In this document: positions 11,234-27,902 of the stretch, in pieces
Layout: every line of letters starts with the position of its first letter
Position numbering within the stretch: the stretch's first letter is position 1
Assembly: GCA_017458145.1 (NCBI GenBank)
Contig: JAFTGA010000036.1
Coordinates: forward strand, 1 to 45,843
DNA from: Bacteroidales bacterium
Lineage (GTDB): Bacteria; Bacteroidota; Bacteroidia; Bacteroidales; UBA932
Length of the DNA: 45,843 bases
Direction: 5' to 3'
Notes under the pieces: model-generated
The model's input: the letters and a program-made list of their open reading frames with translations, nothing else
What the model was told of the DNA's origin: nothing
Database searches by the model: none
Made by a program: the position numbers and the translations under genes

Positions 11234-13348
11234 CTATTTCGTGACCCGGTGCAGCAGCCGCACCCCGCGCAGGGTAAGCAGGGTGTCGCCGGGAGCGGCG
11301 TCAAGCACAGCACGCTGGTCGCGCTGCAGATAGACGGGAGCGTCCTTGCGCAACGGCAGGATCTGCAACTGCACTTCCTTCCCGACGAGCTCGCTGACGC
11401 GCACGAGCATCGTGCGGCCGTTCCAGAAATTGTCTTCCACAAGACGGCCGTCCGCACAGACGCGGGCCACGTCGCCGTCGTAGTCGATCTCCAGGAACCA
11501 GTCGTCGGGGTCGGCCAGCTGCGGGACCGGCAGGTCCCAGACCGCCGCGGCGTCGAAATCGGCCTCCGAAGGCTGCTCAGCCACACCCATCGCCCCGAGG
11601 CCCACCACCCGGGCCGGACCTGCCTTGCGGACGGCCGCGGGCTCCAGGGCCTCCCCGGCCACCCAGCGCTCCTCGACAAGCCGCCGGCCATCCCGGTAGA
11701 GGATACCCTCGCTGAAGCGGACCTTCCGGTCCGAAATCTTATAAGCCGTCAGGGCGCGCTCCGGGCTCATCACGACGATCTTGACCCCCTTCACGCGGAA
11801 GGGCCTGTCCAGACGCGGACGATAAACCTTCCCATGGATGCTCAGGACGGGTTCGATCCCCTCGACGGCCGTGAAATACAGGGCGCGACGCAGCTTGCAG
11901 AAGGGCTGCGCCGTGGCCCAGTCTACGTGCAGGCGCCTGAAATCCAGCCCGAAGGGGAAGCAGAAACTCGCCCCTTCCGGGACGGTCAGTTCCTGTCCGA
12001 AGAAGCTCCAGGACTGCGCCCCGAGCGCGGCCAGGCGCTCATAGTTGTTGACGAAGACGAACCCCTTGTCCCCGGCGCGACGCGTCGCGGTACGCAGCGG
12101 CCCTTCGCCGAATTCCGGCTGCATCGGGGCCATTTCCGCGCCCCAGTCGCGCAGCAGCTGGTGCAGCAGGCGCAGGTGGTGGAAGGAGGGGTTGGGCTGC
12201 CCCATCTCGCCGAGCGGCGCCTGGAAGTCGTAAGTCCTATGCGGAAGGTCGTTCCAGTTGGTATATTTCGATGCCTGGAACTCCGCCATCGAGTGCTCCG
12301 CGCAGTAAGGATTCGTACCGCCGTGGTACATATAATAGCCGGGCAGGTTGCTGCCGGAGCCGACTTTGCAGACGGCGAGCGCCAGGGCATCCCGGTCGAA
12401 AATATGAATCCTGCGGTGGTAGGAGGTCATCATCCCGCCGCCCAGCTCACAGGTCAGGTAGGGGTAGGACAGGTCCGCGGCATTCATCTCGGTGCTCTGG
12501 TCCGTGCCGAAGACCTCGGTGGCAATCACGGCCGACAGGCGGCTGTCCTTGAAACGGAACGCGGCCCGGTAGTCGCCGGGCATCTCGTCGAGCGAACGGT
12601 CCCAGAACCCGTCGGCATAGTCGCCGTAAAGCGGCAGGATCTCACCGAACACGGCCGGGCCCTGCATCTTCGGCCAGCCGGTGCGGGTGTAGAAGGGCAC
12701 ATCCATCCCGGCGGCGATGATAGCCTGCTTGAGCGCGGCGAAATACGGCCAGGGGCCGCTGCTCTCGTTGTCCACCTGCACCCCGATCACCGGGCCGCCG
12801 TCCTTCCAGAGCAGGCCTTCCGCCTGCTTCCCGATGGCATCATAGAAACGCGACACGGCCGCGAGGAAGCCGGGTGCGGTGGTGCGGACCCGATACTGCT
12901 CCGGGTCGGCCAGCGCCTTGTCCACCACCCATTCCGGGATGCCGCCGAGATAGACTTCGCCGTGGCAGAACGGGCCGACACGCAGCACGACCTTCATGCC
13001 GCAGTCGCGGCAGACCTCCAGGAACGCGCGCAGGTTGCGGTTGCCGCTCCAGTCGATCTGTCCTTCCTGCATCTCGTGGTGGCCCCAGAAGATGTAGCAG
13101 GCGGCGATGTCGATGCCGCCGGCCTGCATCTTGCGGATCTCCCGCGGCCAGTCCCGCTCCGGGACGCGGCTGAAATGGATTTCGCCCATCACGGGCAGCA
13201 CATATTCCCCGTTCAGGAGGATGCCCGTGCCATCTACATAAAGCGTCTGCCCGTCCGGGGCAACGGCAGTGCCGAAACGGAAGGGTTCACCGGCCCGGAG
13301 GACCGTGCCGGCTAACAGAAGAAGGATCGCAAGAACGACTTGTCTCAT
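11234..13348 (-). CDS. GH35 beta-galactosidase, exported
   Basis: Hydrolyses terminal beta-galactosides. 704 residues with a signal peptide (1-20, VLAILLLLAGTVLRAG). The TIM barrel contains the family entry motif GEIHFSRVPERDWPREIRKMQAGGID, acid/base Glu195 in GVQVDNESSG and nucleophile Glu301 in YLTCELGGGM. CELGGG replaces the more usual TEYWTGW-type context, so this is a divergent subfamily. C-terminal beta-domains follow to residue 704. It is the last gene of an operon: MFS porter, DUF5107 protein, GH35, with 32 bp separating it from DUF5107, all read from the operator-bearing promoter at 18060. It probably trims galactose from galacto-oligosaccharides or arabinogalactan. The 3' end is convergent with the kinase pseudogene, 9 bp apart. 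Confidence 0.9.
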   Translation of the reverse strand: MRQVVLAILLLLAGTVLRAGEPFRFGTAVAPDGQTLYVDGTGILLNGEYVLPVMGEIHFSRVPERDWPREIRKMQAGGIDIAACYIFWGHHEMQEGQIDWSGNRNLRAFLEVCRDCGMKVVLRVGPFCHGEVYLGGIPEWVVDKALADPEQYRVRTTAPGFLAAVSRFYDAIGKQAEGLLWKDGGPVIGVQVDNESSGPWPYFAALKQAIIAAGMDVPFYTRTGWPKMQGPAVFGEILPLYGDYADGFWDRSLDEMPGDYRAAFRFKDSRLSAVIATEVFGTDQSTEMNAADLSYPYLTCELGGGMMTSYHRRIHIFDRDALALAVCKVGSGSNLPGYYMYHGGTNPYCAEHSMAEFQASKYTNWNDLPHRTYDFQAPLGEMGQPNPSFHHLRLLHQLLRDWGAEMAPMQPEFGEGPLRTATRRAGDKGFVFVNNYERLAALGAQSWSFFGQELTVPEGASFCFPFGLDFRRLHVDWATAQPFCKLRRALYFTAVEGIEPVLSIHGKVYRPRLDRPFRVKGVKIVVMSPERALTAYKISDRKVRFSEGILYRDGRRLVEERWVAGEALEPAAVRKAGPARVVGLGAMGVAEQPSEADFDAAAVWDLPVPQLADPDDWFLEIDYDGDVARVCADGRLVEDNFWNGRTMLVRVSELVGKEVQLQILPLRKDAPVYLQRDQRAVLDAAPGDTLLTLRGVRLLHRVTK

Positions 13349-13380: not shown

Positions 13381-16300
13381 TCAATTCTTTACAGAAATGC
13401 AGGCGGCCAGGCCCGTCCGGCCCATGGCGGCCATCCGGTCGCAGTGGGCGATGTTGCGCGTCTTGAGGTCTTCGTCCCAGACGGCCAGGTCGGGCAGCGA
13501 GACAGCGAAGTAGTCCATCACCACCTCGTCGTCGCGGTGCGCCTCGCCGTAGTCGAGAAGCATCCGGAATTTAGCCTCCGCCTCTTCGCGGCGATCCAGC
13601 GCGGCGAGCGCGAGCCCCTGGTAGTAAATCTTTTCGGGCTTGGCGTCGTTGTAGTAGAGCGCAGGGACGGGCTTGAGGTCTCCCTTCGCAGCCTGCTCCC
13701 AGCATTCCTGCGCACGGGCGGCATCTCCGGCCCCCTGCCAGGCACAGCCGAGCCAATAGTAGAAGTCCTGCTCCTGGGCGCCGTAGAGTTTCCCTTCGCC
13801 CAGGTGCTCCGGATAGACCAGACACGCTTCCAGCAGGGAAACGGCCTCCTGCCAGCGGCCCCCGTCCATCGCCTGTTTCGCGAGTTCGACGCGGCAGCGC
13901 TGGTACTGCGCCGGGACCTTGCCCTCGCCGCCTTCCCAGGGGTGGAAGTGATGGGCGTCCAGTTTTTCCTTTGCCTCGGCGTAGCGGCCCAGGTCATTGA
14001 GCAGGGTGATTTCGGAGAGCACCAGGTCGTCGCGGCACTCCACCTGCGCCCGGTGGGCCTGCAGGCGGTCCAGCCGCGCCTGCGCGGGGCTGCCGAGTTT
14101 CGCGTGGAGCTGGTCCAGCTCCATCAGGATACGGGCGTCGGACTCGTCCAGGGCATAGGCCCGCTCCATCGCGGCCAGGGCGCTGGGGGCATCGTGGCGC
14201 TTGTTGTAGCGCACGAGCGCGAGGCAGCGCCAGGCCGCCGGGAAGTCCGGGTCGGCCGCAACGGCACGCTCCCAGCACGCCTCTGCCAGCTCGTACTGCC
14301 GCTTGTCGTACCACAGGTTGCCGAGCAGCCACGCCGCCCGTGCGTCGCCGGGCTCCGCCGCCGACAGGACCTCGATCGCTTCCAGCCGGTTCGGGAAACA
14401 GATTCTGTTCTGCTCCCGCCGATTGCCGGACAGGCAGTGCTGCCCGGAAACCGTGGCCGCCCGTGGCCTCGTGAACGGGAGGGGCCCGCCGCCGCAGGCG
14501 GTGGGAGGGATAGCGCGAAGCGCGTAGTTTCCGGACGGCAGCTGCCTGTCCGCAGGCGGAGCAGAACAATAATATTTCCAATAATAATACGACATTTCAG
14601 AAAGGGCATCCTGATCGGCGCCGAAGGCCCAGAGGGCGTCGGCCTCCTCGAAGAGCCCGGCGGCGCAGAAATCGAGGGCGATCTCGTCGTAGTTCTCGCT
14701 CTCGCCGCGCATCAGCGAGACGAATGCCGCGCAGTCGCCGGCGCCGAGCAGCAGCTCCACCCAGCGGCAGCCATAGTTGAACTTGTCCAGCGCGAGCGAA
14801 TCCGCACACAGCGCAAGCGCTTCGCCGCCGCGCCCCAGACGCCGAAGCACCGCGGCCTTGAGCGCCCGGGCCTGGTGGTGGTGCCAGTTGCGGGCGAGCG
14901 CGTGGTCCAGCTGGTCCAGCGCATCGTCCCAGCGGCCCTGCACGGTGCTGATCTGCGCACAGGCGAAATACCCGGCATCCTGCCAGGCGGCATTCCAGGT
15001 GGCCTTGTAAAACCAGTCGTAGGCCTCGCCCAGGCGGCCCTGGCGGCGCAGGCACAGGCCCAGGTTGTAGAGCGGCTCGCCGTCGTAGGGATTGGGGTTG
15101 CGCCGCTGCAGGACCTTCACTGCCCGGCGGAAATGCGGCTCAGCGAGCGTGAAACGCCCGCGCCGCAGGTACCACAGACCGAGGGCGTTGTTGTTGCGCA
15201 CGTCGTCCGGATCGCGCCGCAGTGCCTCCTCGTAATAATCCCGGGCGCTCCAGGTCGCATGGCGGTACTGCTCCAGGTGCAGGCCCGTCAGGTAGAGCTG
15301 CTCCGTGGTAACAATCTGAGCCGGCTTCAACGCGGCCTCGGCGGGCGGCGGGACCGGACGGCCTTCGGCGGGCTCCGCGTGCCAGTGCAGGCGGTTCACC
15401 TGCAGGTCCAGCCCGTCGAAGGGGATCTCCCCCACCGGGATCAGTTCGTCGAAGACACGCTCCGGTCCGAGTTCCAGGTCCCGTTCATACAGGGTTTTGC
15501 CCGCGTCGGAGCGCAATAGCACATGCACCGGCTGCTTCGAGGTGGCGAACAGGCGCAGACGCACCCGGCCCGCTTCCGCGGGATCGATGTTGAGCACGAG
15601 GTCCTTGTCGGCGTTCTTCACCACGCCCAATTCCCGGTAGGGGAAGAAATACTGCACGAAGGACTTCTCCTCATAGGGCATCAGCCAGCTGAAATCCGGC
15701 TGGTTCTCCGTATAGACGCCCGCCATCAACTCGATGTACGGGCCGTCCTCGTCGGTGAGGTTGCGGTCCCAGGCCCGGCCAAAGTCGCCGTTACCCCAGG
15801 TCCACTGCTTCTTGCCCGGCGCGAAACGGTGGTCCGCCACGTGCAGCATCCCGCACTGCGTGTCGTTCTCGTAGCCGCCCTCGAAATCGTAGTCCGAAGC
15901 CGCCACCATATAGGAAGTGGGAACCTTGATGTTCTTGTAGTTGGAGATGTCCACCCCGGCGGAGTAGTCCATCTTGTAATAGACGCCCGTCGCGACCGGG
16001 AAGGTGCTGACGGCACGCTTGCCGTGGTCAAAGACGGCGTTGACGTCCGGCGGGAAGACGCTCTGGTAGGCGTCATTGACCTTGACGGCCGGATTGGCCC
16101 ACCACAGGAAGGTCTGCGGCACCTCGGTGCGGTTGTAAAGCACGCCGCGAATCTCCAGGTACGCACAGCCCGGGCGCAGGGTGAAGCCCGCCATGCCCTT
16201 CTGGTGGAACATCCGCTCCATCTCGCTGCACCACACCGTCACGCTCCCGTCGGCGTGTTCCTCGATGGTGCAGTCCACCGGCATGAAAGTGCTCGGACGG

Positions 16301-16662
16301 TGGTGCTGCGGCCAGTTGAACTCGATGCCGCCGCTGATCCAGGGGCCCGCCAGGCCCACCAGGGCCGGCTTGATCACCTGGTTGTAGTAGATGAAATGCC
16401 GCTGCGCAATCTTATCGTATGCCATCTGCACGCGCCCGCCCAGCTCCGGCAGGATCATCACCTTGATGTACTCGTTCTCCAGCCAGACGGCTTCGTACTC
16501 CTTATCCACTTTCTCGTCCGCGATGGACTCGATCACGGGATAGGGATAGACCACCCCGCTGCTTCCCTGATAGACGCGCTTCTCCAGGAAAATCGGATTC
16601 TTCTCGGGCACTCCCGCCTCATAGGTCGGGATGACGACTTTTTCTTTCCAGGCCTTGACCAT
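13381..16662 (-). CDS. DUF5107-TPR protein carrying an in-frame palindromic-repeat insertion
   Basis: 1093 residues, no signal peptide, so probably cytoplasmic. The N-terminal part (about 1-400) is a DUF5107 beta-sandwich related to galactose-mutarotase-like folds: LENEYIKVMILPELGGRVQMAYDK, ISGGIEFNWPQHHRPS, GMLHVADHRFAPGKKQWTWGNGDFG. From about 470 onward TPR-like helical repeats follow, with family signatures FHPWEGGEGKVPAQYQRCR, YPEHLGEGKLYGA and YNDAKPEKIYYQGLAL. Residues about 699-753 (CSAPPADRQ...NRREQN) are encoded by the palindromic element at 14406-14568 and look foreign within the TPR array. It begins 4 nt after the MFS stop, so it is tightly coupled to sugar import. The biochemical role is not established; the mutarotase-like fold next to a porter suggests it handles a sugar or disaccharide. 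The insert may impair it. Confidence 0.85.
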   Translation of the reverse strand: MVKAWKEKVVIPTYEAGVPEKNPIFLEKRVYQGSSGVVYPYPVIESIADEKVDKEYEAVWLENEYIKVMILPELGGRVQMAYDKIAQRHFIYYNQVIKPALVGLAGPWISGGIEFNWPQHHRPSTFMPVDCTIEEHADGSVTVWCSEMERMFHQKGMAGFTLRPGCAYLEIRGVLYNRTEVPQTFLWWANPAVKVNDAYQSVFPPDVNAVFDHGKRAVSTFPVATGVYYKMDYSAGVDISNYKNIKVPTSYMVAASDYDFEGGYENDTQCGMLHVADHRFAPGKKQWTWGNGDFGRAWDRNLTDEDGPYIELMAGVYTENQPDFSWLMPYEEKSFVQYFFPYRELGVVKNADKDLVLNIDPAEAGRVRLRLFATSKQPVHVLLRSDAGKTLYERDLELGPERVFDELIPVGEIPFDGLDLQVNRLHWHAEPAEGRPVPPPAEAALKPAQIVTTEQLYLTGLHLEQYRHATWSARDYYEEALRRDPDDVRNNNALGLWYLRRGRFTLAEPHFRRAVKVLQRRNPNPYDGEPLYNLGLCLRRQGRLGEAYDWFYKATWNAAWQDAGYFACAQISTVQGRWDDALDQLDHALARNWHHHQARALKAAVLRRLGRGGEALALCADSLALDKFNYGCRWVELLLGAGDCAAFVSLMRGESENYDEIALDFCAAGLFEEADALWAFGADQDALSEMSYYYWKYYCSAPPADRQLPSGNYALRAIPPTACGGGPLPFTRPRAATVSGQHCLSGNRREQNRICFPNRLEAIEVLSAAEPGDARAAWLLGNLWYDKRQYELAEACWERAVAADPDFPAAWRCLALVRYNKRHDAPSALAAMERAYALDESDARILMELDQLHAKLGSPAQARLDRLQAHRAQVECRDDLVLSEITLLNDLGRYAEAKEKLDAHHFHPWEGGEGKVPAQYQRCRVELAKQAMDGGRWQEAVSLLEACLVYPEHLGEGKLYGAQEQDFYYWLGCAWQGAGDAARAQECWEQAAKGDLKPVPALYYNDAKPEKIYYQGLALAALDRREEAEAKFRMLLDYGEAHRDDEVVMDYFAVSLPDLAVWDEDLKTRNIAHCDRMAAMGRTGLAACISVKN
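14406..14568. repeat. 163-bp palindromic, multi-hairpin repeat element inserted in the DUF5107 gene
   Basis: Terminal inverted repeats begin TGTTCTGCTCC (14406-14416) and end GGAGCAGAACA (14558-14568). The pairing continues imperfectly for about 40 bp each side through GGACAGGCAG and CTGCC...CGGAAAC blocks. Inside are two smaller hairpins: GCGC-GAA-GCGC near 14513-14523 and CCGCC/GGCGG near 14490-14502. There is no ORF or transposase of its own, and no clear target duplication. Size and structure fit a MITE- or REP-like non-autonomous element. It is read through without a stop by the host gene. Confidence 0.8.
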
Positions 16663-16666
16663 ATCG

Positions 16667-18043
16667 TTATTGCAGTTCGTTTTCAAGTTGTTCGAGGCTC
16701 TTGCCCTTCGTCTCCGGGCAGGCCTTGAGGAAATACAGGAAGCCGCACAGGCAGATGCCGGCATAGATCAGGAAGCTGCCGCTGCAGCCCAGGGCCGCAT
16801 TCATCGACGGGAAGGCGAAGGTCAGCGTGCAGCTGCCCACCCAGAGGGCGAAGGTGCAGACCGCCATCGCAATGCCGCGCACGCGGTTCGGGAAGATCTC
16901 CGACAGGAGCACCCAGGTGACGGGGGCCAGCGTCAGGGCATAGCAGGCAATGGCGGCGACGGTCAGGACGACCATCACGATGCCGGTCACGCCGGCGCGG
17001 AAGCACAGGCCCAGCACCAGGTAGATCAGCGCCAGTCCGCCCGCGCCCAGCAGCATCAGGCTGCGCCTGCCCCAGCGATCGACCACCTGCAGGGCCAGGA
17101 TGGTGAAGACGACGTTCGCCACGCCCGTCACGATGATATTGAGGAAGGCCTCGCTGACGGAATAGCCCGCCCCGGCGAAGACGTCCTGCGCGTAGATGAA
17201 GATCACGTTGGTGCCGCACCACTGCTGGAACACGGCGAGGATGATGCCGAGCGCCAGGACGCGGGCGTAGCGCTTGCGGAAGAGTTCCTTCAGGCCTGCC
17301 TTGCGCTCCGGAGCATCCGCCACCGAAGCGGAAATGGCTGACAGTTCCGCTTCCGCGTAAGCTGTCCCGCCCACGCGGGAAAGGACGGACAGGGCCTGCT
17401 CCCGGTGGCCGTTGAGCGCCGCCCAGCGCGGACTTTCCGGGATGAAGAAAGACAGGACGAGGAACGCGGCGGCCGGGACGGTCTCCGCCCAGAACATCCA
17501 GCGCCAGCCCATCTCCACGTTCCACGGATTGATCTGTCCGCCAATGTCCGGCCGGGCGATGGCCCAGTTGGCGATCTGCGCCGCCAGGATACCCAGCACG
17601 ATGGTCATCTGGTTGAGGCTCACCAGGCGGCCGCGCACCTCCGAAGGCGACACTTCGGCGATATACATCGGCGAGATGGCAGAGGCCAGGCCGATGCCCA
17701 CGCCGCCCACCAGGCGGGCGATGCAGAACAGCCAGAAATCATTGAAGAGGCCCGTGGCGATGGCGCTCACCGTGAAGAGCACGGCCGCGGCCATCAGCAG
17801 CGGCCGGCGGCCATAGCGGTCCGCCAGGGCACCGGCGGTCAGCGCGCCCGCCATGCAGCCCATCAGGGCCGCACTCGTGGCGATGCCCTGCAGGACCGGG
17901 CTGCCGCCCAGGCCGAAGAACTGTTCATAAAACTTGACAGCCCCGCCGATCACGACCCAGTCGTAACCGAACAGCAGCCCGCCCATCGCCGAAACCAGGC
18001 AGATGAAATAGATGAAACCTTTGTTGTAAGATGATGTGGCCAT
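16667..18043 (-). CDS. MFS sugar porter (sugar:proton symporter type)
   Basis: 458 residues with about 12 membrane helices. Sugar-porter signatures: GGLLFGYDWVVIGGA in TM1, ADRYGRRPLLM between TM2 and TM3, IGLASAISPMYIAEVSP and RGRLVSLNQ around TM4-5, PESPRW before the central loop, DRWGRRSLML between TM8 and TM9, and PETKGKSLEQLE at the C-terminus. These place it with XylE/AraE/GLUT-type proteins of the inner membrane. ATG at 18043 (MATSSYNKGF) is chosen; the open frame extends upstream to 18118, but that stretch is the promoter and operator. It starts the operon with DUF5107 (4 nt away) and GH35. The likely cargo is a monosaccharide released from pectin side chains, such as galactose, arabinose or rhamnose; which one is not shown. 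Confidence 0.92.
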   Translation of the reverse strand: MATSSYNKGFIYFICLVSAMGGLLFGYDWVVIGGAVKFYEQFFGLGGSPVLQGIATSAALMGCMAGALTAGALADRYGRRPLLMAAAVLFTVSAIATGLFNDFWLFCIARLVGGVGIGLASAISPMYIAEVSPSEVRGRLVSLNQMTIVLGILAAQIANWAIARPDIGGQINPWNVEMGWRWMFWAETVPAAAFLVLSFFIPESPRWAALNGHREQALSVLSRVGGTAYAEAELSAISASVADAPERKAGLKELFRKRYARVLALGIILAVFQQWCGTNVIFIYAQDVFAGAGYSVSEAFLNIIVTGVANVVFTILALQVVDRWGRRSLMLLGAGGLALIYLVLGLCFRAGVTGIVMVVLTVAAIACYALTLAPVTWVLLSEIFPNRVRGIAMAVCTFALWVGSCTLTFAFPSMNAALGCSGSFLIYAGICLCGFLYFLKACPETKGKSLEQLENELQ

Positions 18044-18059: not shown

Positions 18060-18121
18060 CAAAGGTACGCGGAATCCCCGCAGGAAAGAATAGAAAATGT
18101 AAATAAAAAGATGGACAAAAT
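18060..18121 (-). promoter_or_regulatory. Promoter and AraC-type direct-repeat operator of the MFS-DUF5107-GH35 operon
   Basis: On the minus strand: ATTTTGTCCATCTTT from 18121, with half-site GTCCAT (18116-18111), then TTCTAT (18095-18090) exactly 21 bp later, then 22 nt to the -7 box TACCTTTG (18067-18060). The same sequence and spacing occur before GH2 (20057-20118). On the other strand, GTCCAT lies where the -33 box of a candidate fic-araC promoter (TAACTTTA, 18135-18142) would be, so binding could also adjust the regulator's own expression. Confidence 0.78.
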
Positions 18122-18158
18122 CGCAAGTTATTACTAACTTTACGGAAAGAATCAGCTT

Positions 18159-19169
18159 ATGGGAAATGAAGCTAAACTACTCTATCTGGACTTTGACCAA
18201 TACATCCGTCAGGGAGAGCCTTCCCGGCGGAAACGGGCGGAGGCGTGGAGCATCGCTATCGGTCTCCAGGCCGTTGACGGACTAACCACATCGGACTACC
18301 TGCAGCAGACAGCCCGAAGGAATATTGAAGGAGATATCTCCATCGATGAAGCCCGGGAGCTCATCCGTTCCTATTATTTGTCCAAAACCACGCGGGAAAC
18401 TCAGGAGGAGGACAAAGAAGAAGCAGACAAAGTATCTGCGAACATCGCCAAAAGAGAATGGGTCCTGGACGGGGATACCGTTTCCTACCTGAACTGGGAA
18501 GACCTCCGCCGTGCGCTGGATTACGATATTGCGCAAGAAAAAGCATTCAGCTATAAAGGAATCACGCCGGACACGCTCATCACCCACCTTGCTTCCTTCA
18601 TCTCAGGCATCTGGCAGATTCACCCGTTTGAGGAAGGGAACACGCGTACCACCGCGGTTTTCGCAATCCTGTATCTAAGATCGCTCGGGTTTCCCGTCAA
18701 CAACGACATGTTCGCCCGCCACTCCTGGTATTTCCGCAATGCCCTGGTCCGCGCCAACTACAAGAGTGCCGTGAAGGGCATTGACTACACGCCCGACTAT
18801 CTTGAGCGGTTCCTGCGCAACCGTTATCTGCACATCCACCCCGCTCCCGAATGGAGTGTGCAACCTCGTCTCGACACCCCGGCAAGCACCCCGACAAGCA
18901 CCCCGACAAGTTTGTCCCTTCCTGACAATACAAACATTCTCAACGTCATTCTGGCAATAGGGCAGAATCAGCTGTCAGTAAAGCAAATCATGCAAACAGT
19001 CGGGCTTCGGGACAGAGAAAATTTCATGGAATATTCCCTGCACCCTTCTATCACCGGAGGATATGTCCGGCTACGTTATCCCGACAAGCCCCGCCATCCG
19101 CAACAGAGCTATCTGCTGACAGAAAAAGGGACACTGGTGCTGGAAAGTCTGTCAAAGAAAAACGTCTGA
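18159..19169 (+). CDS. Fic-family protein (probable AMP transferase) with C-terminal winged-helix region
   Basis: Fic domains usually transfer AMP from ATP to a hydroxyl side chain of a target protein. The 336-residue product has the complete active motif HPFEEGNTRT starting at His155, including the catalytic His and the phosphate-binding GNTR. The N-terminal helix region TARRNIEGDISIDEARELIRSYY resembles the inhibitory VbhA-type antitoxin helix fused in many Fic proteins, but Arg stands where the usual S/TxxxEG motif has Ser or Thr. A proline/threonine linker (TPASTPTSTPTS) encoded by a short tandem repeat near 18886-18910 leads to a C-terminal winged-helix-like domain (LSVKQIMQTVGLRDRENFMEY...YLLTEKGTLVLE). 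Base composition is less GC-rich than its neighbours, hinting at transfer. The stop is 1 nt before the AraC gene, so they are co-translated. Confidence 0.9.
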   Translation: MGNEAKLLYLDFDQYIRQGEPSRRKRAEAWSIAIGLQAVDGLTTSDYLQQTARRNIEGDISIDEARELIRSYYLSKTTRETQEEDKEEADKVSANIAKREWVLDGDTVSYLNWEDLRRALDYDIAQEKAFSYKGITPDTLITHLASFISGIWQIHPFEEGNTRTTAVFAILYLRSLGFPVNNDMFARHSWYFRNALVRANYKSAVKGIDYTPDYLERFLRNRYLHIHPAPEWSVQPRLDTPASTPTSTPTSLSLPDNTNILNVILAIGQNQLSVKQIMQTVGLRDRENFMEYSLHPSITGGYVRLRYPDKPRHPQQSYLLTEKGTLVLESLSKKNV

Positions 19170-19170
19170 T

Positions 19171-20055
19171 ATGCTCAAACTCAAAGACGGATTCAGGGGC
19201 AGCCGGATGATCGTCCTGCCGCCGCCGGTGGTGGAAGCGCTGGAGCGCGATCCATTTACCTCCAAGCTCTATCTGACCGACATCGGCCATTTCCCCCATG
19301 CCGCCCACCACTACCGCCAGCGGCCGGGAGGCACGGACGCCTGGATCCTGCTTTACTGCACCGACGGGCGGGGCTGGGTTGAGTACCAGGGGACCCAGCA
19401 TGAGCTCAAGGCTGGACAATCCTTCATCATCCCGGCCGGGGCGCCGCACACCTACGGCGCCGACGGGGACCAGCCCTGGTCGCTCTACTGGGTCCACTTC
19501 AAAGGGGAACTGGCGCCCTACTTCGCCGAAGGCTGCGACCGCGTCTGCTCCATGGCCGCCCCGGACCACGACCGCATCACGGGCCGCACCACCCTCTTCG
19601 AAGAGCTCTACCTTGCCGTCGAGACCGGTTTCGGCGATGCGCAGCTGCGCTACGCCTGCGCCACGCTCTACCATTTCCTGGGCACCTTCCGCTACCTCCA
19701 GGCAGGCTACGCCCCCCGCAAGGACGGCAGTTCGCTGGGCATCATCGAGCGCTGCCGCAACTATATGCAGGAGCATCTGGAAGAGCACATCTCCCTGGAG
19801 GACCTGTGCCGCTTCACCGGCTTCTCCCCTGCCCGCTGCAACGCCCTTTTCAAGGAGCATACCGGGATGAGTCCCATCGCCTACCTGCAGGAGCTGCGCA
19901 TCCAGACCGCGATGCAACTCTTCGACCAAACGGACATGCACATCAACCAGGTCTGCCACAAGGTCGGCATCGAGGACCCCTACTATTTCTCCCGCCTCTT
20001 CCGCAAACGCACCAGCCTCTCCCCCTCCGCCTGGCGCCGCCAGGGGCGGAAATAG
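19171..20055 (+). CDS. AraC-family transcriptional regulator with cupin sensor domain
   Basis: 294 residues. The N-terminal cupin-like sugar-sensing domain (about 35-130) shows the family pattern DAWILLYCTDGRGWVEYQG...LKAGQSFIIPAGAPHTYGAD...WSLYWVHFKG. The C-terminal double helix-turn-helix (about 190-290) has the first HTH in HISLEDLCRFTGFSPARCNALFKEHTGMSPIAYL and the second in MHINQVCHKVGIEDPYYFSRLFRKRTSLSPSAWR, the AraC signature. It is a one-component cytoplasmic regulator, not a hybrid two-component sensor. The start is 1 nt after the fic stop. It sits between two promoters that share a 21-bp-period direct repeat, the usual AraC-dimer geometry, so it most likely activates the MFS and GH2 operons in response to a pectin-derived sugar. 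Confidence 0.93.
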   Translation: MLKLKDGFRGSRMIVLPPPVVEALERDPFTSKLYLTDIGHFPHAAHHYRQRPGGTDAWILLYCTDGRGWVEYQGTQHELKAGQSFIIPAGAPHTYGADGDQPWSLYWVHFKGELAPYFAEGCDRVCSMAAPDHDRITGRTTLFEELYLAVETGFGDAQLRYACATLYHFLGTFRYLQAGYAPRKDGSSLGIIERCRNYMQEHLEEHISLEDLCRFTGFSPARCNALFKEHTGMSPIAYLQELRIQTAMQLFDQTDMHINQVCHKVGIEDPYYFSRLFRKRTSLSPSAWRRQGRK

Positions 20056-20056
20056 A

Positions 20057-20118
20057 ATTTTGTCCATCTTTATTTTTTTATCTTCCATTGTAGGCATGCA
20101 GTGGATAGGATAACTTTG
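20057..20118 (+). promoter_or_regulatory. Promoter and AraC-type direct-repeat operator of the GH2-GH42-GH43/28 operon
   Basis: ATTTTGTCCATCTTT from 20057 holds half-site GTCCAT (20062-20067); TTCCAT (20083-20088) follows 21 bp later, overlaps the TTG -33 box (20088-20090), and is 22 nt from the perfect -7 box TAACTTTG (20111-20118). The layout is identical to that before the MFS operon. A site abutting the -33 box is the classic position of an AraC-type activator touching RNA polymerase. Confidence 0.8.
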
Positions 20119-20144: not shown

Positions 20145-23100
20145 ATGCTCCGGAAAACCCTGCTGCCTGTACTGTTCCTGCTGCTGACCTGCACCGCCCT
20201 GCAGGCCCAGAAGCGGCAACCTGTGTCGCAGTCCTTCGAACTGCGCTATGTCACCTCCGACCCCGCCGCCGACGGAGAGACGGATTTCAAGGGAGCGACC
20301 GCATGGTTCGACACGCCCCGGCGGGTCGAATACCTGCAGAAATACGCCGCCTACGCCTCCCGCTGGTTCGATGACCGGACGCTTGCGGAACAGGTCGTCC
20401 CGGACGAAGAGGTAGAGCGGGCGATGGCAGCGCTCAAACCCCAGCCGCTCCCGCAGGTACGCCGGACCCTCCGGCTGGAGGACTGGGCCGCCTACGGCTA
20501 CCGGGAGGGACAGGAAGCCGCTTCGCGGCAGCGCATCACCTTCTGGAACGCCCTGGCTCCCGGTGGTGCGGCCGTGCGGGACGGACGCCTGGTCTTCGGG
20601 GCCGCGAAAGATCTGGTCCTGGACATCCCGGAGCAGGCCTGGCGCTTCCGCTTTGAGTTTTCCCTGGAAGGGGATGGCGGCGTAGCCTTCAGCGACAGCC
20701 GCAGCGGCCGGACGGTCGCCAGGGCGGACCTGCGCGGCGGGAAGGCATTCTTCGTTTCCGACGGAAAAGAGCGCAGCAGCACTACTGTAGGCGCAGGCGT
20801 GCACCGCGGCCTGTTGGAGATCGACCTGGCGGCGGAAGGGCGACGCTATAATTTCAGCGTCGATGGGGTTCTGGTGGCCGATTTCGTACCCCTGACCGAT
20901 GCGGAGGCCGTCCGGGCGGACCGGCTGGTGCTCTCCGGCGGCGCCGGAGCCGCTTTCGATGCGCTCTGGGGCGTAGGCTACACGCCGACCACCCGCACCG
21001 ACCGGCTCAACATGCCTTATTATGTGTCCACCTTCCTGGATGACAGTTTTGACATCAAGCCGGATGTGGAGGGATGGACACGCGCCGGGTTCGACGACAG
21101 CGCCTGGGAGCGCACGGACCTGCCCCGCGCCCACGGCAGCGAGCGCCATGCGGGCGAAGACCTCTTCCTGCGCAAGACCCTGCACGTCGATGCGTTCGAG
21201 AAAGCCTGGTTCGAACTGGAATCGCTCTTCCCGTGCGGCGAACTCTGGATCAACGGCCGAGTGGTCGAGGTGATCCGCGAGCCGCATCCGCAGATGGTCG
21301 ACGTCTCACCGTATCTCAAAGCTGGGGAAGATAATATCATCGCCTTGAAAATCAACAGTTTCTCCGCGCCCGAAGAGCAGATGATGCACCACTGCCCGAC
21401 CGATCCCAACATCGGCTGGTTCGCCGGACGGGCCCGGCTGCACCTCACCGCGCCGGTCCACATTACGGATATCTATGTCTATACGAAAGACCTGCAGGGT
21501 GCGGATGCACTCGTCAGCGCTGAAGTCACGGTGGAGAATATGCATTACACCCGCTACCATGGGAAACTTCAGCTCCTGCTCAAGGAGTGGTTCCCTGTCG
21601 AGGCCGCCACGGAAACGGCTGCGGCCGCCCTGGAGGTCGAGTTGGAACCGCAGCAGACCCGGACCTTCCGCACTACGTTCACCGTCCGCGACGCCCGGCT
21701 CTGGAGCGCCGCAGATCCGCAGCTCTACCAGGTCCGGGCCTTGCTTGTCAATGCCGAGAGCGGCACGAGGACGGAGGTCTTCCGCGCCCTGGACGGCGAT
21801 GAAGGCGTGCGCCGCGAGGTCAGCACGGCTCATTTCACGGACGACTACGTCCTGACCACCGGCCTGCGCACAGTCGACCAGGACGGCGGGACCTTCCGGA
21901 TCAACCGGAAGCCGGAGTTGCTGCGCGCTCCGCTCGTCTTCGGGCAGCGTTTCCCGCTGGAGCGGCTCGCGACCGACCTGCTCTGCGCCTCCTCCCCGGA
22001 TATGATGCGCGAACTGCTCGCCATCAAGAAGATGGGCGGCAACGGCGCCCGGATGAGCGTGCACTGGTCCAACAACTTCGGTCGGGACGGCACCAACGAC
22101 CCCCGCTGGCTGGAGATGGCAGACCAGCTCGGCCTGATGTACGCCTGGACCACAGCTTCCTGGACCCGGGTCTACTCGCCGTTCACCACGGATTTCGCCG
22201 GGATGGAAAAGGACGTCCGGCAGACACGCAACGCTCCCAGCATCGTGATCTGGCAGACGGCCAACCACCCCGACCTGTCCCGCTGGGATGATGCGATGGT
22301 CTATTTCAACCGGGTCTATGACATCATCTACCCGCTCGACACCACGCGCCTGATCACCCCGACGGCCGATCTGCGCCACATCGGGCCGCACAACGACGAC
22401 GGATCCCTGGACAAGGACGGACGGCCCGACCCGGCCTGCGACCCGGTCTGGACGGCACACCGCATCGCCCGTGGCAGCATGGACTATCCGACCGGCTTCG
22501 GCCAGGACTGGGAGTACCTGCGCCGCTGGCCCTTCCCGCACCAGTGGAAAGGCAACGTGCCCATCAACGACTACCTGCAGAGTCCCGTACGGGCCTATTT
22601 CAACTTCGAGCAGGAAGAGTCCATCGGGCAGATGAACTGGGAGCTGTACAAAGGCAGCCCGGTCTACAAGTACCACTCCTACGAATGGGACTACGACACA
22701 GGCAGTATCGGCCGCCTGCTGGAGGCGGACGAATGGCGCGAGAGCCAGGCCTGGCAGGCCTTCAGCGCCTATGAATGCATCCGCAAGATGCGCTGGCTGG
22801 ACTACGACGGGCTGTCGTGGTGCTGCATGTGGGGCGGGCCCAACATGGGCACTTACCAGAAGCCGCTCATCGATGCCCTGGGCAACAAGAAACTTGCCTT
22901 CTATGCCCACCGGATGGGCTTCCAGGACCTGCTGGCCGGATCAGGCAACGTGGATATGGTCTATGGCCCGGGCGACAGTCCGGCGCTGGTCGCCCTCAAC
23001 CTCGGCGATGCCCGCAGGGTGGAGGTCGTGCTGACCGTCCGGAACGACAAAGGCAAGCAGGTGCTGCAGCGCCGCTACAAGGACCTCCTTCTGGGAGAAG

Positions 23101-23189
23101 GGCGCACGGCGCAGGAGTTCGCGCGCCTGTCGCTCCCCAAACTCCCGGACGGATATTATTTCTTTGAATATCAAATCTTTGACCGTTAG
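20145..23189 (+). CDS. GH2-like exported glycoside hydrolase with altered acid/base motif
   Basis: 1014 residues with a signal peptide (MLRKTLLPVLFLLLTCTALQAQ). The N-terminal third includes a laminin-G/concanavalin-like insert (about 130-280). GH2 architecture follows: sugar-binding jelly roll around 320-445 (WTRAGFDDSAWERTDLP, LHVDAFEKAWFELES, LWINGRVV), an immunoglobulin-like domain around 450-550, and a TIM barrel beyond 600 (KKMGGNGARMSVHWSN, NAPSIVIWQTANHPD). Where GH2 beta-galactosidases and glucuronidases have the acid/base Glu after Asn (GNE), this protein has Asn707-His708. A clear SEFG-type nucleophile motif is also not evident, YFNFEQEESIGQ being the nearest. It may be a different linkage specialist or catalytically reduced. 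It is first in the operator-controlled operon; GH42 starts 2 nt after its stop. Confidence 0.8.
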   Translation: MLRKTLLPVLFLLLTCTALQAQKRQPVSQSFELRYVTSDPAADGETDFKGATAWFDTPRRVEYLQKYAAYASRWFDDRTLAEQVVPDEEVERAMAALKPQPLPQVRRTLRLEDWAAYGYREGQEAASRQRITFWNALAPGGAAVRDGRLVFGAAKDLVLDIPEQAWRFRFEFSLEGDGGVAFSDSRSGRTVARADLRGGKAFFVSDGKERSSTTVGAGVHRGLLEIDLAAEGRRYNFSVDGVLVADFVPLTDAEAVRADRLVLSGGAGAAFDALWGVGYTPTTRTDRLNMPYYVSTFLDDSFDIKPDVEGWTRAGFDDSAWERTDLPRAHGSERHAGEDLFLRKTLHVDAFEKAWFELESLFPCGELWINGRVVEVIREPHPQMVDVSPYLKAGEDNIIALKINSFSAPEEQMMHHCPTDPNIGWFAGRARLHLTAPVHITDIYVYTKDLQGADALVSAEVTVENMHYTRYHGKLQLLLKEWFPVEAATETAAAALEVELEPQQTRTFRTTFTVRDARLWSAADPQLYQVRALLVNAESGTRTEVFRALDGDEGVRREVSTAHFTDDYVLTTGLRTVDQDGGTFRINRKPELLRAPLVFGQRFPLERLATDLLCASSPDMMRELLAIKKMGGNGARMSVHWSNNFGRDGTNDPRWLEMADQLGLMYAWTTASWTRVYSPFTTDFAGMEKDVRQTRNAPSIVIWQTANHPDLSRWDDAMVYFNRVYDIIYPLDTTRLITPTADLRHIGPHNDDGSLDKDGRPDPACDPVWTAHRIARGSMDYPTGFGQDWEYLRRWPFPHQWKGNVPINDYLQSPVRAYFNFEQEESIGQMNWELYKGSPVYKYHSYEWDYDTGSIGRLLEADEWRESQAWQAFSAYECIRKMRWLDYDGLSWCCMWGGPNMGTYQKPLIDALGNKKLAFYAHRMGFQDLLAGSGNVDMVYGPGDSPALVALNLGDARRVEVVLTVRNDKGKQVLQRRYKDLLLGEGRTAQEFARLSLPKLPDGYYFFEYQIFDR

Positions 23190-23191
23190 AC

Positions 23192-25204
23192 ATGAAACAA
23201 ATCCTCTCTATTCTAATCCTGGTCGCCCTGGCGCTTCCCCTCCCGGCGCAGCAACTTTATGTCGGTGCCAACTGGCATCCGCACGATCTCACGTCCGACG
23301 AAATCTCGCGGGACATCCGCCTGATGCAGGAAGCCGGGTTCAACGTGGTCCGGCTCGGACACCTGGCTTGGGACAGCTACGAACCCCGGGAAGGCGAATA
23401 CAGTTTCGCGTGGTTCGATCCTGTGCTTGACCAATGTGAAGCGGCCGGTATCAAGGTCATCCTGGACATTCCGGTACGTCCTGCGCCGATGTGGCTGCAC
23501 AAGAAGTACCCCGGTGTCAATATCGTGGACGGCAGGGGAGGGATCACCTATCCCAACCACCGATACATGCAGGACGTCGGCGATCCGGACTACCAACGCT
23601 GCGCCCTGGCCCTTACTGAAGCGATGACCGCCCGTTATGGATCTCATCCCGCTGTAATCGGTTTTGGCTTGGATAATGAAGCCGCCAGCGGAGCTACCTC
23701 TTATTCTGAATACGTGCGCAAGCGCTTTGTATCCTGGCTGGAACGCAAATACGGCACCACCGATGCGCTCAACACGGCCTGGGCCGGTCAACGCTGGTCC
23801 CGGCGCCTGTCAGACTTCGATGAAGTCGTCCTGCCCAACGGCAACGGGCAGCCGGAGAAGAGGCTGGACTTCCAGCGGTTCATCTCCGATGAAGTCAACG
23901 GGTTTTATATCAAGATGCTTGATATCATCGAGCGCAACGCCCCGGGTGCCCAGACCTATTCCAATTGTTGGTATTATGCGGACGGCAAGCCCTACGACTA
24001 CGCTCCCTTCGTCTATACAGGGCGGATGACACGCGGCGGGGCCGGTATCTATCCGGGTAGTTTGTTATCTTCCGATGTCCACAGTACGCTGTTCGGCATC
24101 GCACGAATCCAGTACGAGAGCCCGACCCCTTTCTGGTGCTGCGAATTCCAAACCCGCAATTCCACGCCGGGTGCCGTCCGTCGTTTCGCCTACCAGACCC
24201 TGATGTATGGGTCTGAAATGGTCTGCGGGTGGACCTAGCAGACCATGCACGGCGGAGAGGAGCAGTTTTATACCGGCATGATGGACTGGGACGGCACCCC
24301 CAATGAAAAATACGACGAATACCGTCAGATCGCCTCGGAGTTCAAAAAGATTCAGGCTTGGTTCCCTTACAAGCTCAAGGCTGAAGCGGCCATCGCCCTT
24401 TCTTTTGACAGCCGTATCCACCCGGGATTCCTGGGAAGTCGGCATGAGCGGAGTATCCAGGAGGCGTTCAACCTGTTCTATGATCGCAATCTGGATGTGC
24501 GTGTTGTGGATCTGGCGCGCAGTTCCCTGGATTACAAATTGCTGATCATCCCAGACGTATCCGTAATCGATAAGGCGTCCGCTGAGAATATCAGACGTTT
24601 CGTGGAACGGGGCGGAACTGTCTTGATGACCGGAGATTCCGGACAGCTTGATGCCACGGGACAGGTCTTCCGGACCACGCTGCCAGGACGTTTGGCAGAC
24701 GTGTTCGGCATCCGGGTGGGGAAATTTATGGATACCGCTTCGGTCAAGGAACTGGCCGGCCTTTCTGCAAACGACCGCAATATGACCGTCAACTATAAGG
24801 GATCACCCATTCATGTGCAGGCCGCGTATTTCGACATTATCGAGCCGCGTGGAGCCACCGTCACCGGGACCCTGTCCGGCATTGACAGTGAGCGGCCTAT
24901 CATTACTGAGAACCGTTATGGGCTGGGACGCGCTATTTTTGTCGGATTGGCTGAGACCCCTGCCTACCTCTCCGTCCTTCTGGATGAAATGATTGGGCAG
25001 TTGGGCATCCGGCGTGCTCCCGAAGTCCCCACCGGCGTGCAGGTGCGCCGGATCGATGAGCAGCACTTCCTCTATTTCAATTCCACTCCTAACCCGCAGA
25101 CCATCCTCGTCGGAAGGCCCTCACGCAGTCTGCTCCACGATGTCCGGCTTGACGCCAGTTTCACGCTTTCACCCTATGAGCCTGAGTTTATAGAGATCCG
25201 ATAA
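23192..25204 (+). pseudogene. GH42 beta-galactosidase interrupted by an in-frame amber codon
   Basis: The frame encodes a normal-length GH42 enzyme (670 codon positions) except for TAG at 24236-24238, codon 349. The first part (1-348) has a signal peptide, the barrel, acid/base Glu163 in GFGLDNEAAS and nucleophile Glu318 in FWCCEFQTRN. The second part (from QTMHGGEEQFYTGMMDWDG) has the end of the barrel and the glutamine-amidotransferase-like trimerisation domain (LLIIPDVSVID...GGTVLMTGDSG). The family expects Trp in GWT-W-QTMHGG, so TGG to TAG is the simplest change. The sequence is otherwise intact, without frameshifts, so this is a very recent nonsense mutation, a base error or a readthrough site. 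TAG is an ordinary stop elsewhere here. The operon continues with GH43-GH28 8 nt after the final stop. Confidence 0.88.
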
Positions 25205-25212: not shown

Positions 25213-27837
25213 ATGAGAAAATATTCCACCATTCTCTTCTGCCTTTCCGTTTTCTGTGCAGGCATTGCCGCCCAGGCGCAGACCCGGCAGCACTATGACA
25301 GCATCAAGCCCGGCCAGGTCTGGCTGGACACCTCCGGCAAGCCCATCCAGGCCCACGGATTCCAGATTTTCGAGCAGGACGGTACCTATTACTGGTACGG
25401 CGAGAACAAGGAGCACACGCTTCGGGGATCCAATGTCTGGACCTGGGGCATCCGCGCCTACAAGTCCACAGACTTCTACAACTGGGAAGACCTGGGCCTG
25501 ATCATCCCGCCCGACGAGGAGAATCCCCTCTCCCCGCTGCACTATTCCCAGTCGCTCGACCGGCCCCATATCCTCTACTGCAGCAATACCGGCAAGTGGG
25601 TCTGCTGGATCAAAAGCATGGCCACCGACGGCTATTTCGTGGTCCTGCAGGCAGACCGCTTCGAGGGCCCCTATACCCTGATCCGATCCTTCAAGCCCGA
25701 GGGTTTCGGCGTGGGGGATTTCGATATGTATGTGGATCCGGACACAGGTCATGGATACGTGTGGTTCGAACGTCCACACTGGGAGATGATCTGCGCGGAA
25801 CTGACCGACGATTTCCTCGGCACGAACGGCACCTTCTCCGAGCATTTCGTCGGGCTGCGCCCTCCCTATACGCGTGAGGCTCCCGCGCATTTCGTGCGCG
25901 ACGGCAAGCACTACATGTTCACCAGCGGTACTTCCGGCTATACACCCAACCCTTCGAAGGTGGCCGTATTTACGGATTACCATGGGGAATACACGGATCT
26001 GGGCTGCCCGCATATCGACGATGCATGGCAGGATTCCTTCTGCTCACAGATCTCCGGTGTAGTCAAGATCCCCGGACGGGACCTTTATATCGCCCTGGCG
26101 GACCGGTGGCTTCCGCATATTGCCGGCACGGATGTCGCGATGCGCACCTGGAAGAGCTATGAGACCCGCTATGTGAACCACCAGCCCAATGAAAGGGATT
26201 TCTCGGAACCGCAGGTCCGGGACAAGTCCGGCAGTCGCCGCGGTGGATCTGATACCACCGTCGGCTCCACCTATGTCTTCCTGCCCGTCACGTTCGACGC
26301 CGACGGCAAGCCCACGCTCGTCTGGCAGGACGAGTGGCGTCTGGAGGACTATCAGATCCCGACCCGCCTGGAAGTAGGCCCCGCCGTAATGCCTGCGGAG
26401 ATTGAGCCCATCGAGGCGCCCTTCCCGATGCCGCAGCTCGGCCGGCCGGAAATCCCGTCCCGGGAAGTCACGGTCAAGATGAAGAAGAAAGGCTTGTCCA
26501 CCGGAGTTATCCAGACAGCAATAGACAAACTCGCTGCCCAGGGTGGAGGCACGGTCGTCATTCCCGCAGGCATCTGGCAGTCCGGCCGGATTGAACTGCG
26601 CAGCCGGATCAACCTGCAGCTCGCCGAAGGCGCCGAACTGCACTTCAGCGGCGAGATCAAGGATTATCTGCCCGTCGTCTTCACGCGCGACGAGGGCATC
26701 GAGATTTATTCCCTCGGCGCTTTTATCTATGCCTGCGACGCAGAGGATATTGCCGTGACGGGCAAGGGCCGCATCGTCGGTCCGTCCACGGAGTGTGAAA
26801 TCTATCGCAACAACGCCGAAAAGGCCCAGAACATCGAGGTCATCACCCACAACGGCGAGATGCCGCTGTCGGAGCGCATCTTCGACGGGGTGCACAACAG
26901 CGGCGAGGTGTTCCTGCCCAAGACCATTGCGCCCATTCGTTGCAAGAATGTCCTCATCGAGGGCGTGACCCTGGATGCCGGCCTCTACTGGAACGTGGTC
27001 CCGCAGTATTGCGAGAACGTGGTCATCCGCGGCGTCACCGTGCGCTCCCACGGCCATGGCCGCACCGACGGCGTGGACGTCGAGTCCTCCCGCAACGTAC
27101 TTGTGGAATACTGTTCCCTGGACTGCCAGGACGACAACTACACGCTCAAGTCCGGCCGCGGCGTGGACGGCGTGCGCGTCGGCATCCCGACGGAGAACGT
27201 CGTGATCCGCAAGAGCCTGGCACTGCGCGGTGGGGGCGGGATCGTATTCGGCACGGAAGTCGCCGGCGGTATCCGCAACGTCTATATGCACGACTGTGTC
27301 TTCGACGGCACCGGCCAGGGCTTCCGTTTCAAGACCCTGCGCCCGCGCGGGGGCGGCGTGGAGAACGTTACGGTGGAGCGCATCCGCGCCAACATTACAG
27401 GCAACGCCCTGCTCTGCGACCAGCTGAACAGCGTGAAATGGGCGGGCGACCTGGCCTACCGCTACGCCGTACCGGGCAAGGAATCCGCCACGGCGGTGGA
27501 GATCGCCACACTGAAGGGGCCCTACACCCCGAACTTCCACACGGTCTCTATCAGCGATGTACTCATCGAGCACTGCGACCGCTTCCTGAACTTCGTCTGC
27601 ACCCCGGAACTGCCCTTCCGCGACGTCCTGTTCCGCAATGTAAAAGCTAAGGCCAACCATTTCGGCTCCCTGCGCGACGCCCGCAGCCTCGTTCTGGAGA
27701 GCGTGGACCTCAATACCCCGGACCCTGAGCTGAGGGTCGATGGCAGCGAGGGGATCTTCCTACTGGATGTCTCGGTCAATGGCGAAGCGCCCGTAATCCG
27801 GCAGACCGGTGTGCCGTCCTCGGTCGTGATTCGCTGA
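25213..27837 (+). CDS. Bimodular GH43-GH28 exported pectin-side-chain hydrolase
   Basis: 874 residues with a signal peptide (ending AGIAAQAQ). Residues about 25-395 form a five-bladed GH43-type propeller resembling the exo-galactanase-like subfamily: AHGFQIFEQDGTYYWYGENKE, SLDRPHILYCSNTGKWVCWIK, GVGDFDMYVDPDTGHGYV, REAPAHFVRDGKHYMFTSG. Residues about 430-860 form a GH28 polygalacturonase-type beta-helix: GVIQTAIDKLAAQGGGTVVIPAG, RTDGVD (619 Asp), CQDDN (Asp640-641) and RFK (705-707). The conserved GHG histidine is replaced by GGGG (673-676), so activity may be changed. The fusion would cut a galactose linkage and a galacturonate linkage in the same substrate. It is third in the GH2 operon, and the PfkB kinase gene begins 65 nt later. 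Confidence 0.88.
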   Translation: MRKYSTILFCLSVFCAGIAAQAQTRQHYDSIKPGQVWLDTSGKPIQAHGFQIFEQDGTYYWYGENKEHTLRGSNVWTWGIRAYKSTDFYNWEDLGLIIPPDEENPLSPLHYSQSLDRPHILYCSNTGKWVCWIKSMATDGYFVVLQADRFEGPYTLIRSFKPEGFGVGDFDMYVDPDTGHGYVWFERPHWEMICAELTDDFLGTNGTFSEHFVGLRPPYTREAPAHFVRDGKHYMFTSGTSGYTPNPSKVAVFTDYHGEYTDLGCPHIDDAWQDSFCSQISGVVKIPGRDLYIALADRWLPHIAGTDVAMRTWKSYETRYVNHQPNERDFSEPQVRDKSGSRRGGSDTTVGSTYVFLPVTFDADGKPTLVWQDEWRLEDYQIPTRLEVGPAVMPAEIEPIEAPFPMPQLGRPEIPSREVTVKMKKKGLSTGVIQTAIDKLAAQGGGTVVIPAGIWQSGRIELRSRINLQLAEGAELHFSGEIKDYLPVVFTRDEGIEIYSLGAFIYACDAEDIAVTGKGRIVGPSTECEIYRNNAEKAQNIEVITHNGEMPLSERIFDGVHNSGEVFLPKTIAPIRCKNVLIEGVTLDAGLYWNVVPQYCENVVIRGVTVRSHGHGRTDGVDVESSRNVLVEYCSLDCQDDNYTLKSGRGVDGVRVGIPTENVVIRKSLALRGGGGIVFGTEVAGGIRNVYMHDCVFDGTGQGFRFKTLRPRGGGVENVTVERIRANITGNALLCDQLNSVKWAGDLAYRYAVPGKESATAVEIATLKGPYTPNFHTVSISDVLIEHCDRFLNFVCTPELPFRDVLFRNVKAKANHFGSLRDARSLVLESVDLNTPDPELRVDGSEGIFLLDVSVNGEAPVIRQTGVPSSVVIR

Positions 27838-27902
27838 CGCAGCAGATCATCATCATTTTTCCCGATTATTTGCTAACTTGCCGGGAGAATAACAATCGCG
27901 CT

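Follow-up and report, generated by a model that had tools for sequence, protein, structure and literature searches.

Two direct-repeat sites at a fixed promoter distance as predicted operators of an AraC-family regulator in a Bacteroidales pectin side-chain locus

A 45,843-nucleotide stretch of contig JAFTGA010000036.1 from a Bacteroidales bacterium (assembly GCA_017458145.1), hereafter the window, carries two copies of one direct-repeat site, on either side of a fic gene and a gene encoding a 294-residue AraC-family regulator. We consider it very probable that both sites are operators of this regulator (19171-20055), which would activate a pectic galactan regulon through them: a divergent operon with a major facilitator superfamily (MFS) sugar porter, a DUF5107 protein and a GH35 protein, and a downstream operon with GH2, GH42, GH43-GH28 and PfkB-family proteins. 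The proposal is built on sequence comparison, namely on the layout of the sites, their conservation, the constraint on their distance from the promoter and their co-occurrence with the regulator.

Layout of the sites and its conservation

The window holds two exact matches to the pattern GTCCAT-N15-TTCYAT-N22-TAnnTTTG (18116-18060, minus strand, operator 1; 20062-20118, plus strand, operator 2). In both operators the half-sites start 21 bp apart, and the -7 box follows the second half-site after 22 nt. The 15-mer ATTTTGTCCATCTTT, which extends the distal half-site, is likewise found exactly twice (20057-20071, plus strand; 18121-18107, minus strand). The two matching sites reported by a first-pass annotation of this DNA, with one period and one promoter spacing, are thus confirmed.

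In the whole assembly (2,182,661 bases in 64 contigs, 80.54% complete), the pattern yields three matches at up to three mismatches, the two exact window sites and one at three mismatches, and the reversed control pattern yields none. With up to two mismatches, the 15-mer matches 11 times versus 3 for its control, the only exact copies being those in the window. When 20 letter-shuffled windows were scanned on one strand with periods of 21-22 and gaps of 21-23, no match appeared at up to 2 mismatches in 16 and 13 appeared at exactly 3. The random scatter that would have spoken against the annotation is therefore not seen; the only two exact sites of the assembly lie at these two operons.

Comparison of the orthologous promoters indicates that both the half-sites and the 22-nt spacing are conserved. 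Among seven close orthologs, i.e. the window, five at 81-87% identity and genome G089 at 80% (G and L numbers denote genomes and loci of the relatives compared), TTTT plus TCCATCTTTTT and the proximal TCTAT of operator 1 are invariant in all seven. Invariant columns make up 5/5 of the second half-site, 7/8 of the -7 box and 2/22 of the spacer. In these sequences, the length of the spacer is kept and its sequence is not.

The spacing constraint was evaluated in 37 homologs by scanning the divergent strand up to 350 bp upstream, with periods of 17-26, gaps of 17-27 and at most 1 mismatch in 16; the two fic-bearing loci were scanned upstream of fic. Loci repeating a genome, the near copy L047 (of L048), the truncated L027, L042 and L057, and L024, L025, L028 and L105, which fall under 30% identity, were excluded. 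Period 21 with gap 22 collects 17 homologs, followed by (22,22) with four and (20,22) with one. All remaining cells hold 0 or 1, except (26,17) with four and (26,18) with two, which are probably a re-reading of the T-rich stretch past the second half-site, since the total length is nearly equal. The same-strand control gave a single match over 110 cells. With the period set at 21 or 22 and the gap at 22, 14 homologs match perfectly, seven with one mismatch, three with two and 13 with three or more. The L035, L036 and L037 loci have a period of 22 rather than 21. L035, from a Prevotellaceae assembly, carries three such sites, all with a gap of 22; the genes that follow them are an MFS gene, one without identification and a GH53 gene, the last of which reads into SusD, possibly an effect of assembly or deletion.

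The constraint reappears in a held-out set, on which the pattern had not been shaped. It comprised 20 new loci, of which one was short of upstream DNA; 16 further matches without a locus were left aside, and the rest of the draw had been seen previously. In the remaining 19 loci, (21,22) holds nine at up to one mismatch and 13 at up to two, whereas other cells hold at most one and at most four, respectively, and the same-strand control at up to two mismatches is empty. One held-out homolog, L139, has a gap of 23.

The regulator, its co-occurrence with the sites and competing readings

The regulator gives 76.1 bits with HTH_18 (PF12833; cut-off 33.6) and 65.3 bits with AraC_binding (PF02311; cut-off 21.1), and all five Pfam families that it matches are AraC helix-turn-helix (HTH) or cupin families. 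Together with a direct repeat close to the core promoter whose period is about two helical turns, as judged from sequence geometry, these matches place it with the cupin-sensor regulators of the AraC/XylS family. Its DNA-binding domain matches AraC (2k9s) by sequence, and its sensor is closest, among solved sensor domains, to BgaR (6nwh; E 1e-6, residues 59-118). The score against the NCBIfam AraC equivalog NF007860 is 106.2 bits over residues 48-291, under the curated cut-off of 208. A hybrid two-component system (HTCS) would have a periplasmic sensor, a kinase and a receiver fused to the HTH, and the Pfam output for this protein shows neither a kinase nor a receiver domain.

In the mechanism that we propose, a dimer of the regulator would use its N-terminal cupin domain to sense an intracellular sugar, which is probably galactose, a small beta-galactoside or another sugar of rhamnogalacturonan I (RG-I) side chains. 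The sugar is suggested by the galactosidase families (GH35, GH2 and GH42, with GH53 in relatives) and by the BgaR-like sensor, although arabinose or another RG-I sugar may also be the inducer. The sugar-bound dimer would place its two HTH domains on the TCYAT half-sites, which lie on the same face of the DNA and are separated by two helical turns. Since the promoter-proximal half-site would abut or overlap the -33 region and lies 22 nt before the -7 box typical of Bacteroidota, the activator is proposed to sit beside the primary sigma factor and to switch on both operons.

Alternatively, the same protein might bind the sites as a repressor that is released by sugar, which we regard as unlikely. 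In operator 2, a TTG lies 20 nt ahead of the -7 box, so that the promoter there might work unaided, and in several relatives an exact -7 box on the araC side lies only 9-11 nt from the operator, an arrangement suited to repression of the regulator's own gene. The constant 22-nt placement, however, is confined to the target side. Moreover, among 32 period-21 sites adjoining araC, the G that would complete a -33 TTG is found in only four (at 20 nt) or three (at 19 nt), as in an activator-dependent promoter. Activation is preferred because the target-side spacing is fixed and the -33 letters are poor. AraC-type sugar regulators are mostly activators. For the family in Bacteroides, PMC3870299 describes RhaR (BT3768) of B. 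thetaiotaomicron as a positive regulator.

To relate the sites to the regulator across genomes, araC homologs were called at E 1e-40 or better, with up to six candidates scored per genome, and the pattern was relaxed to TNNTCCAT-N16-TCYAT-N22-TANNTTTG. Within the genus, the homolog was found in 19 of 400 genomes, seven of them at 80% identity or more with the own genome included. The exact relaxed pattern is present in eight, all within the 19 carriers and including all seven at 80% or more (Fisher p 5e-12; 1e-10 without the own genome); the 381 genomes without a homolog have none, and the reversed control is also zero. The two scans apparently covered the same draw of 400 genomes. Since most of these sites adjoin araC, the association is largely one of linkage, and unlinked sites are a better test. 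Such sites occur in 2 of the 19 homolog genomes versus 0 of 381 others (p 0.002): in G089, 28 kb away and preceding GH53 and GH2, and in G015, on a separate contig and preceding GH2. Outside this count, a distal site in G248 (L089 16938, G248:C77) stands before GH53 with a period of 19 and a gap of 22.

In the order, the pattern is present in 10 and the homolog in 44 of 393 genomes. Five of the ten pattern genomes (the own genome, G476, G526, G729 and G785) have the homolog (enrichment p 0.002, and 0.011 once the own genome is removed). In G476 and G526 the site is flanked by the homolog on one side and an MFS gene on the other; in G785 the homolog is about 9.6 kb off, and the site precedes an MFS gene. 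The earlier proposal of one AraC regulon that joins a porter and hydrolase genes is supported by the genome scan and by the conserved half-sites and spacing; the sites also track the araC homolog across the 400 genomes of the genus.

Several observations weigh against this picture. Besides the linkage just described, the unlinked evidence is small, amounting to two genomes and the period-19 site of G248, and the pattern was relaxed only after the first relatives had been seen. In the spacing grid, 13 of the 37 homologs have three or more mismatches, including L019 with its period-20 site; the motif had served to pick the genomes of six homologs (L100-L104 and L106), three of which have at most one mismatch; and the excluded L024, L025, L027, L028, L057 and L105 had scored as misses (L042 was unscored). 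In the order, the G729 site adjoins a different AraC-family gene (L093) and not the homolog, five pattern genomes lack the homolog (G567, G596, G624, G672 and G734), and the reversed pattern gave one match; because of that match, the sites of G596, G624, G672 and G734 may be chance. A Pedobacter homolog (L041) has no site in the upstream scan. In G217, a 33%-identical homolog has a perfect operator with the 22-nt spacing (L074 9537, G217:C60) that precedes a gene for a pyruvate-formate-lyase-like glycyl radical enzyme, at the head of a glycyl-radical enzyme operon rather than before a sugar gene. Finally, no operator was found upstream of the window GH53 gene (7101-8246). We accordingly rejected this gene as a third target; GH53 is present in all seven close genomes, and a site before GH53 was seen only in G089, G248 and L035.

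A further alternative is that the sites belong to an HTCS, or to another paralog with an AraC-type HTH, rather than to the adjacent gene. The 21-bp period had been taken as a hallmark of AraC rather than HTCS control, but this argument fails because direct repeats with a mean of 21 bp are predicted for HTCS regulators too, according to PMC3878776, where BT4673 is the HTCS for pectic galactan in B. thetaiotaomicron. A similar site also follows a different AraC-family gene in L093 and L094, which are of one genus. Even so, the reading appears very improbable: the relaxed pattern is absent from all 381 genus genomes without the araC homolog, and homologs at only 33-44% identity still carry the site beside their own gene. 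The operators also differ, with their 21-bp period, from the repeats 67 or 77 bp apart that are given for the SusR family in PMC3878776.

That the two sites resemble each other by chance, or that one AT-rich promoter was recently copied with no regulator involved, can practically be dismissed: both lie in AT-rich intergenic DNA and have 15 identical bases in common, but their spacers differ, each is matched by conserved counterparts of its own in L029 and L030, and the genus scan, the spacing grid and the recurrence of the layout in the held-out homologs already contradict this explanation.

The surrounding locus and its variation

On the araC side, the ATGGA edge of operator 1 ends 19 nt before TAACTTTA, a candidate -7 box that differs from TAnnTTTG by one letter. 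The overlap of this operator with the -33 region of a fic-araC promoter, put forward in the first-pass annotation as a sign of autoregulation, holds in the window, while the geometry does not hold among relatives. Of 37 promoters whose site has at most two mismatches (24 from the first set and 13 held-out), 25 have an exact TAnnTTTG between the operator and the start codon. Its distance from the operator edge ranges from 9 to 105 nt, and some of these matches may be chance in AT-rich DNA. A conserved geometry of autoregulation was rejected on account of this great variation, because of which autoregulation of araC is only suggested. The araC-side -7 box lacks constancy, and the fixed geometry is therefore a property of the target side. 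The edge-to-box distances appear to form groups around 9-11, 17-20 and 38-42 nt, which may reflect helical phasing.

The fic gene is found in two of the seven close orthologs, the window and L029. The notion of a functional Fic-AraC pair was thus given up as a conserved unit, and fic appears to be accessory. By eye, the window fic promoter looks like the promoter in front of araC in L031, a locus that lacks fic.

Besides the window, L029 and L030 carry operator 2. In L031, araC is followed by TTTTGTCGATC, which looks like a remnant, and L032, L033 and G089 have no operator 2 and carry a PfkB homolog directly after araC. The first gene below operator 2 also changes, from GH2 in the window to another, weakly GH2-like gene in L029 and GH43-GH28 in L030. 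Between roughly 20300 and 29000, the window shares about 97-100% identity with G274, another species' genome that contains L029, whereas adjoining 600-base pieces are 77-95% identical on the left (13201-20091) and 85-92% on the right (28801-31103). The left edge of the near-identical stretch falls within the first ~150 bases of GH2, past the operator and promoter, and the right edge just beyond PfkB. These data fit a recent exchange of the GH2-GH42-GH43/28-PfkB operon between species, in either direction, and suggest that enzyme operons are swapped under an operator and promoter that stay behind.

The Pfam scan covered 27 window open reading frames (ORFs) out of 73 of at least 150 amino acids, many of them overlapping, and shows a pectin side-chain locus (Table 1); neither SusC nor SusD is among these 27. 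The scan upholds the gene labels of the first-pass annotation, with the qualification that GH42 consists of two ORFs, interrupted by an in-frame TAG at 24236-24238. The copy in L029, otherwise near-identical, is intact and open over 670 codons, and the TAG is either a recent nonsense mutation or an assembly error. The DUF5107 gene, located between MFS and GH35, accompanies MFS in many relatives. Its alignments begin at residue 35 in L030 and L031 and at residue 1-2 in L029 and L033; the true start may be near 16662, because alignments in several relatives begin near residue 35.

Table 1. Predicted regulatory elements and genes of the locus (positions in the window)
Feature	Position	Strand	Remark
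Operator 1, extended distal half-site ATTTTGTCCATCTTT	18107..18121	minus	GTCCAT at 18116-18111
Operator 1, promoter-proximal half-site TTCTAT	18090..18095	minus	21 bp from distal half-site
-7 box TACCTTTG, MFS-DUF5107-GH35 promoter	18060..18067	minus	22 nt past half-site
Candidate -7 box TAACTTTA, fic-araC transcript	18135..18142	plus	operator edge 19 nt upstream
Operator 2, extended distal half-site ATTTTGTCCATCTTT	20057..20071	plus	GTCCAT at 20062-20067
Operator 2, promoter-proximal half-site TTCCAT	20083..20088	plus	
-7 box TAACTTTG, GH2 operon promoter	20111..20118	plus	
AraC-family regulator, 294 aa	19171..20055	plus	AraC_binding cupin and HTH_18 (Pfam)
MFS sugar porter, predicted target 1	16667..18043	minus	Pfam Sugar_tr; NCBIfam sugar porter family
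DUF5107-TPR protein (PF17128)	13381..16764	minus	Pfam; ORF overlaps MFS ORF
GH35 beta-galactosidase family gene	11234..13348	minus	Pfam
fic, between operator 1 and araC	18159..19169	plus	Pfam Fic and Fic-like_C
GH2, first gene below operator 2	20145..23189	plus	Pfam
GH42, split	23192..25204	plus	Pfam GH42 and GH42M; ORFs 23192-24238 and 24245-25204
GH43-GH28 gene	25213..27837	plus	Pfam
PfkB-family sugar kinase	27870..28826	plus	Pfam
GDSL-family gene	6315-7049		Pfam
GH53	7101-8246	minus	Pfam
Alpha-L-rhamnosidase	8234-10648		Pfam
GH106 rhamnosidase	28899-31214		Pfam

Reach across Bacteroidota and relation to known systems

As far as can be judged from sequence, the layout recurs at a fixed promoter distance beside many relatives of the regulator in Bacteroidota. 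Beyond the Bacteroidales, a Niastella vici homolog (L040) has a perfect repeat and a -7 box at 22 nt with one mismatch; in its locus, a GDSL gene, a SusC/SusD pair and an MFS-DUF5107 pair are each preceded by a site, two of the three -7 boxes being one letter off. In the same wider range, a Maribacter homolog has a perfect repeat and a Mucilaginibacter homolog a repeat with one mismatch, the -7 box at 22 nt being unmatched in both. A TCCAT direct repeat with a -7 box follows the different AraC-family gene in L093 and L094 (1501-1559 in each). By eye, these two sites precede thioredoxin-like genes, and the AraC-family gene of L094 (G567) looks frame-broken.

The sites of G217, L093 and L094, and the period of 22 with an unchanged gap in L035, hint at a grammar that extends over the phylum. 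We advance only tentatively, and as somewhat less than an even prospect, that many one-component AraC activators of Bacteroidota, also outside this subfamily, read a 20-22-bp TCYAT repeat placed exactly 22 nt before TAnnTTTG, and that the operator serves as a fixed port for exchanged enzyme operons; the latter is hinted at by the operon below operator 2, which is near-identical in two species that differ in their operator DNA.

If the proposed regulon is correct, the operator and promoter spacing would become readable for an AraC subfamily that accompanies an MFS porter, often with DUF5107, in many Bacteroidota, and this subfamily would be linked, via a one-component regulator, to how gut and rumen bacteria use pectin side chains. 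The 22-nt distance would define how an AraC activator is seated on the unusual Bacteroidota promoter, and would be useful for regulon prediction and for the building of inducible promoters.

The kind of operator is already known, because PMC3878776 and PMC3870299 describe direct repeats of about 21 bp for HTCS and AraC-family regulators, the latter for the rhamnose-use regulators of Bacteroides. The particular operator and its 22-nt placement appear to be new, as no description of either was found in the titles and abstract openings of the literature searched.

Among characterized regulators, the protein resembles E. coli AraC at araBAD in its cupin sensor and AraC-type HTH, as judged by sequence similarity. 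At E. coli araBAD (araI1-I2), direct-repeat half-sites about 21 bp apart lie beside the core promoter, the second of which abuts -33. The E. coli half-site sequence differs from the window half-sites. Unlike the E. coli system, the window has a Bacteroidota-type -7 box and a divergent MFS-DUF5107 target, and the regulator falls short of the AraC equivalog (106 bits against a cut-off of 208). BgaR, which we take to be the lactose-sensing protein of Clostridium perfringens, is the closest solved sensor by sequence (6nwh), although the match spans only 60 residues.

Within Bacteroidota, RhaR (BT3768) is comparable as a one-component AraC-family activator with a predicted 21-bp repeat, as given in PMC3870299 and PMC3878776. 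It differs in governing a rhamnose regulon with a single target operon, and the likeness lies in the family and in the period of the repeat. HTCS_Pga (BT4673), as described in PMC3878776, shares an AraC-type DNA-binding domain, direct repeats of about 21 bp and pectic galactan as the substrate. In contrast to HTCS_Pga, the window regulator is a protein of 294 amino acids without kinase or receiver domains, and its locus has no SusC/SusD among the 27 ORFs scanned.

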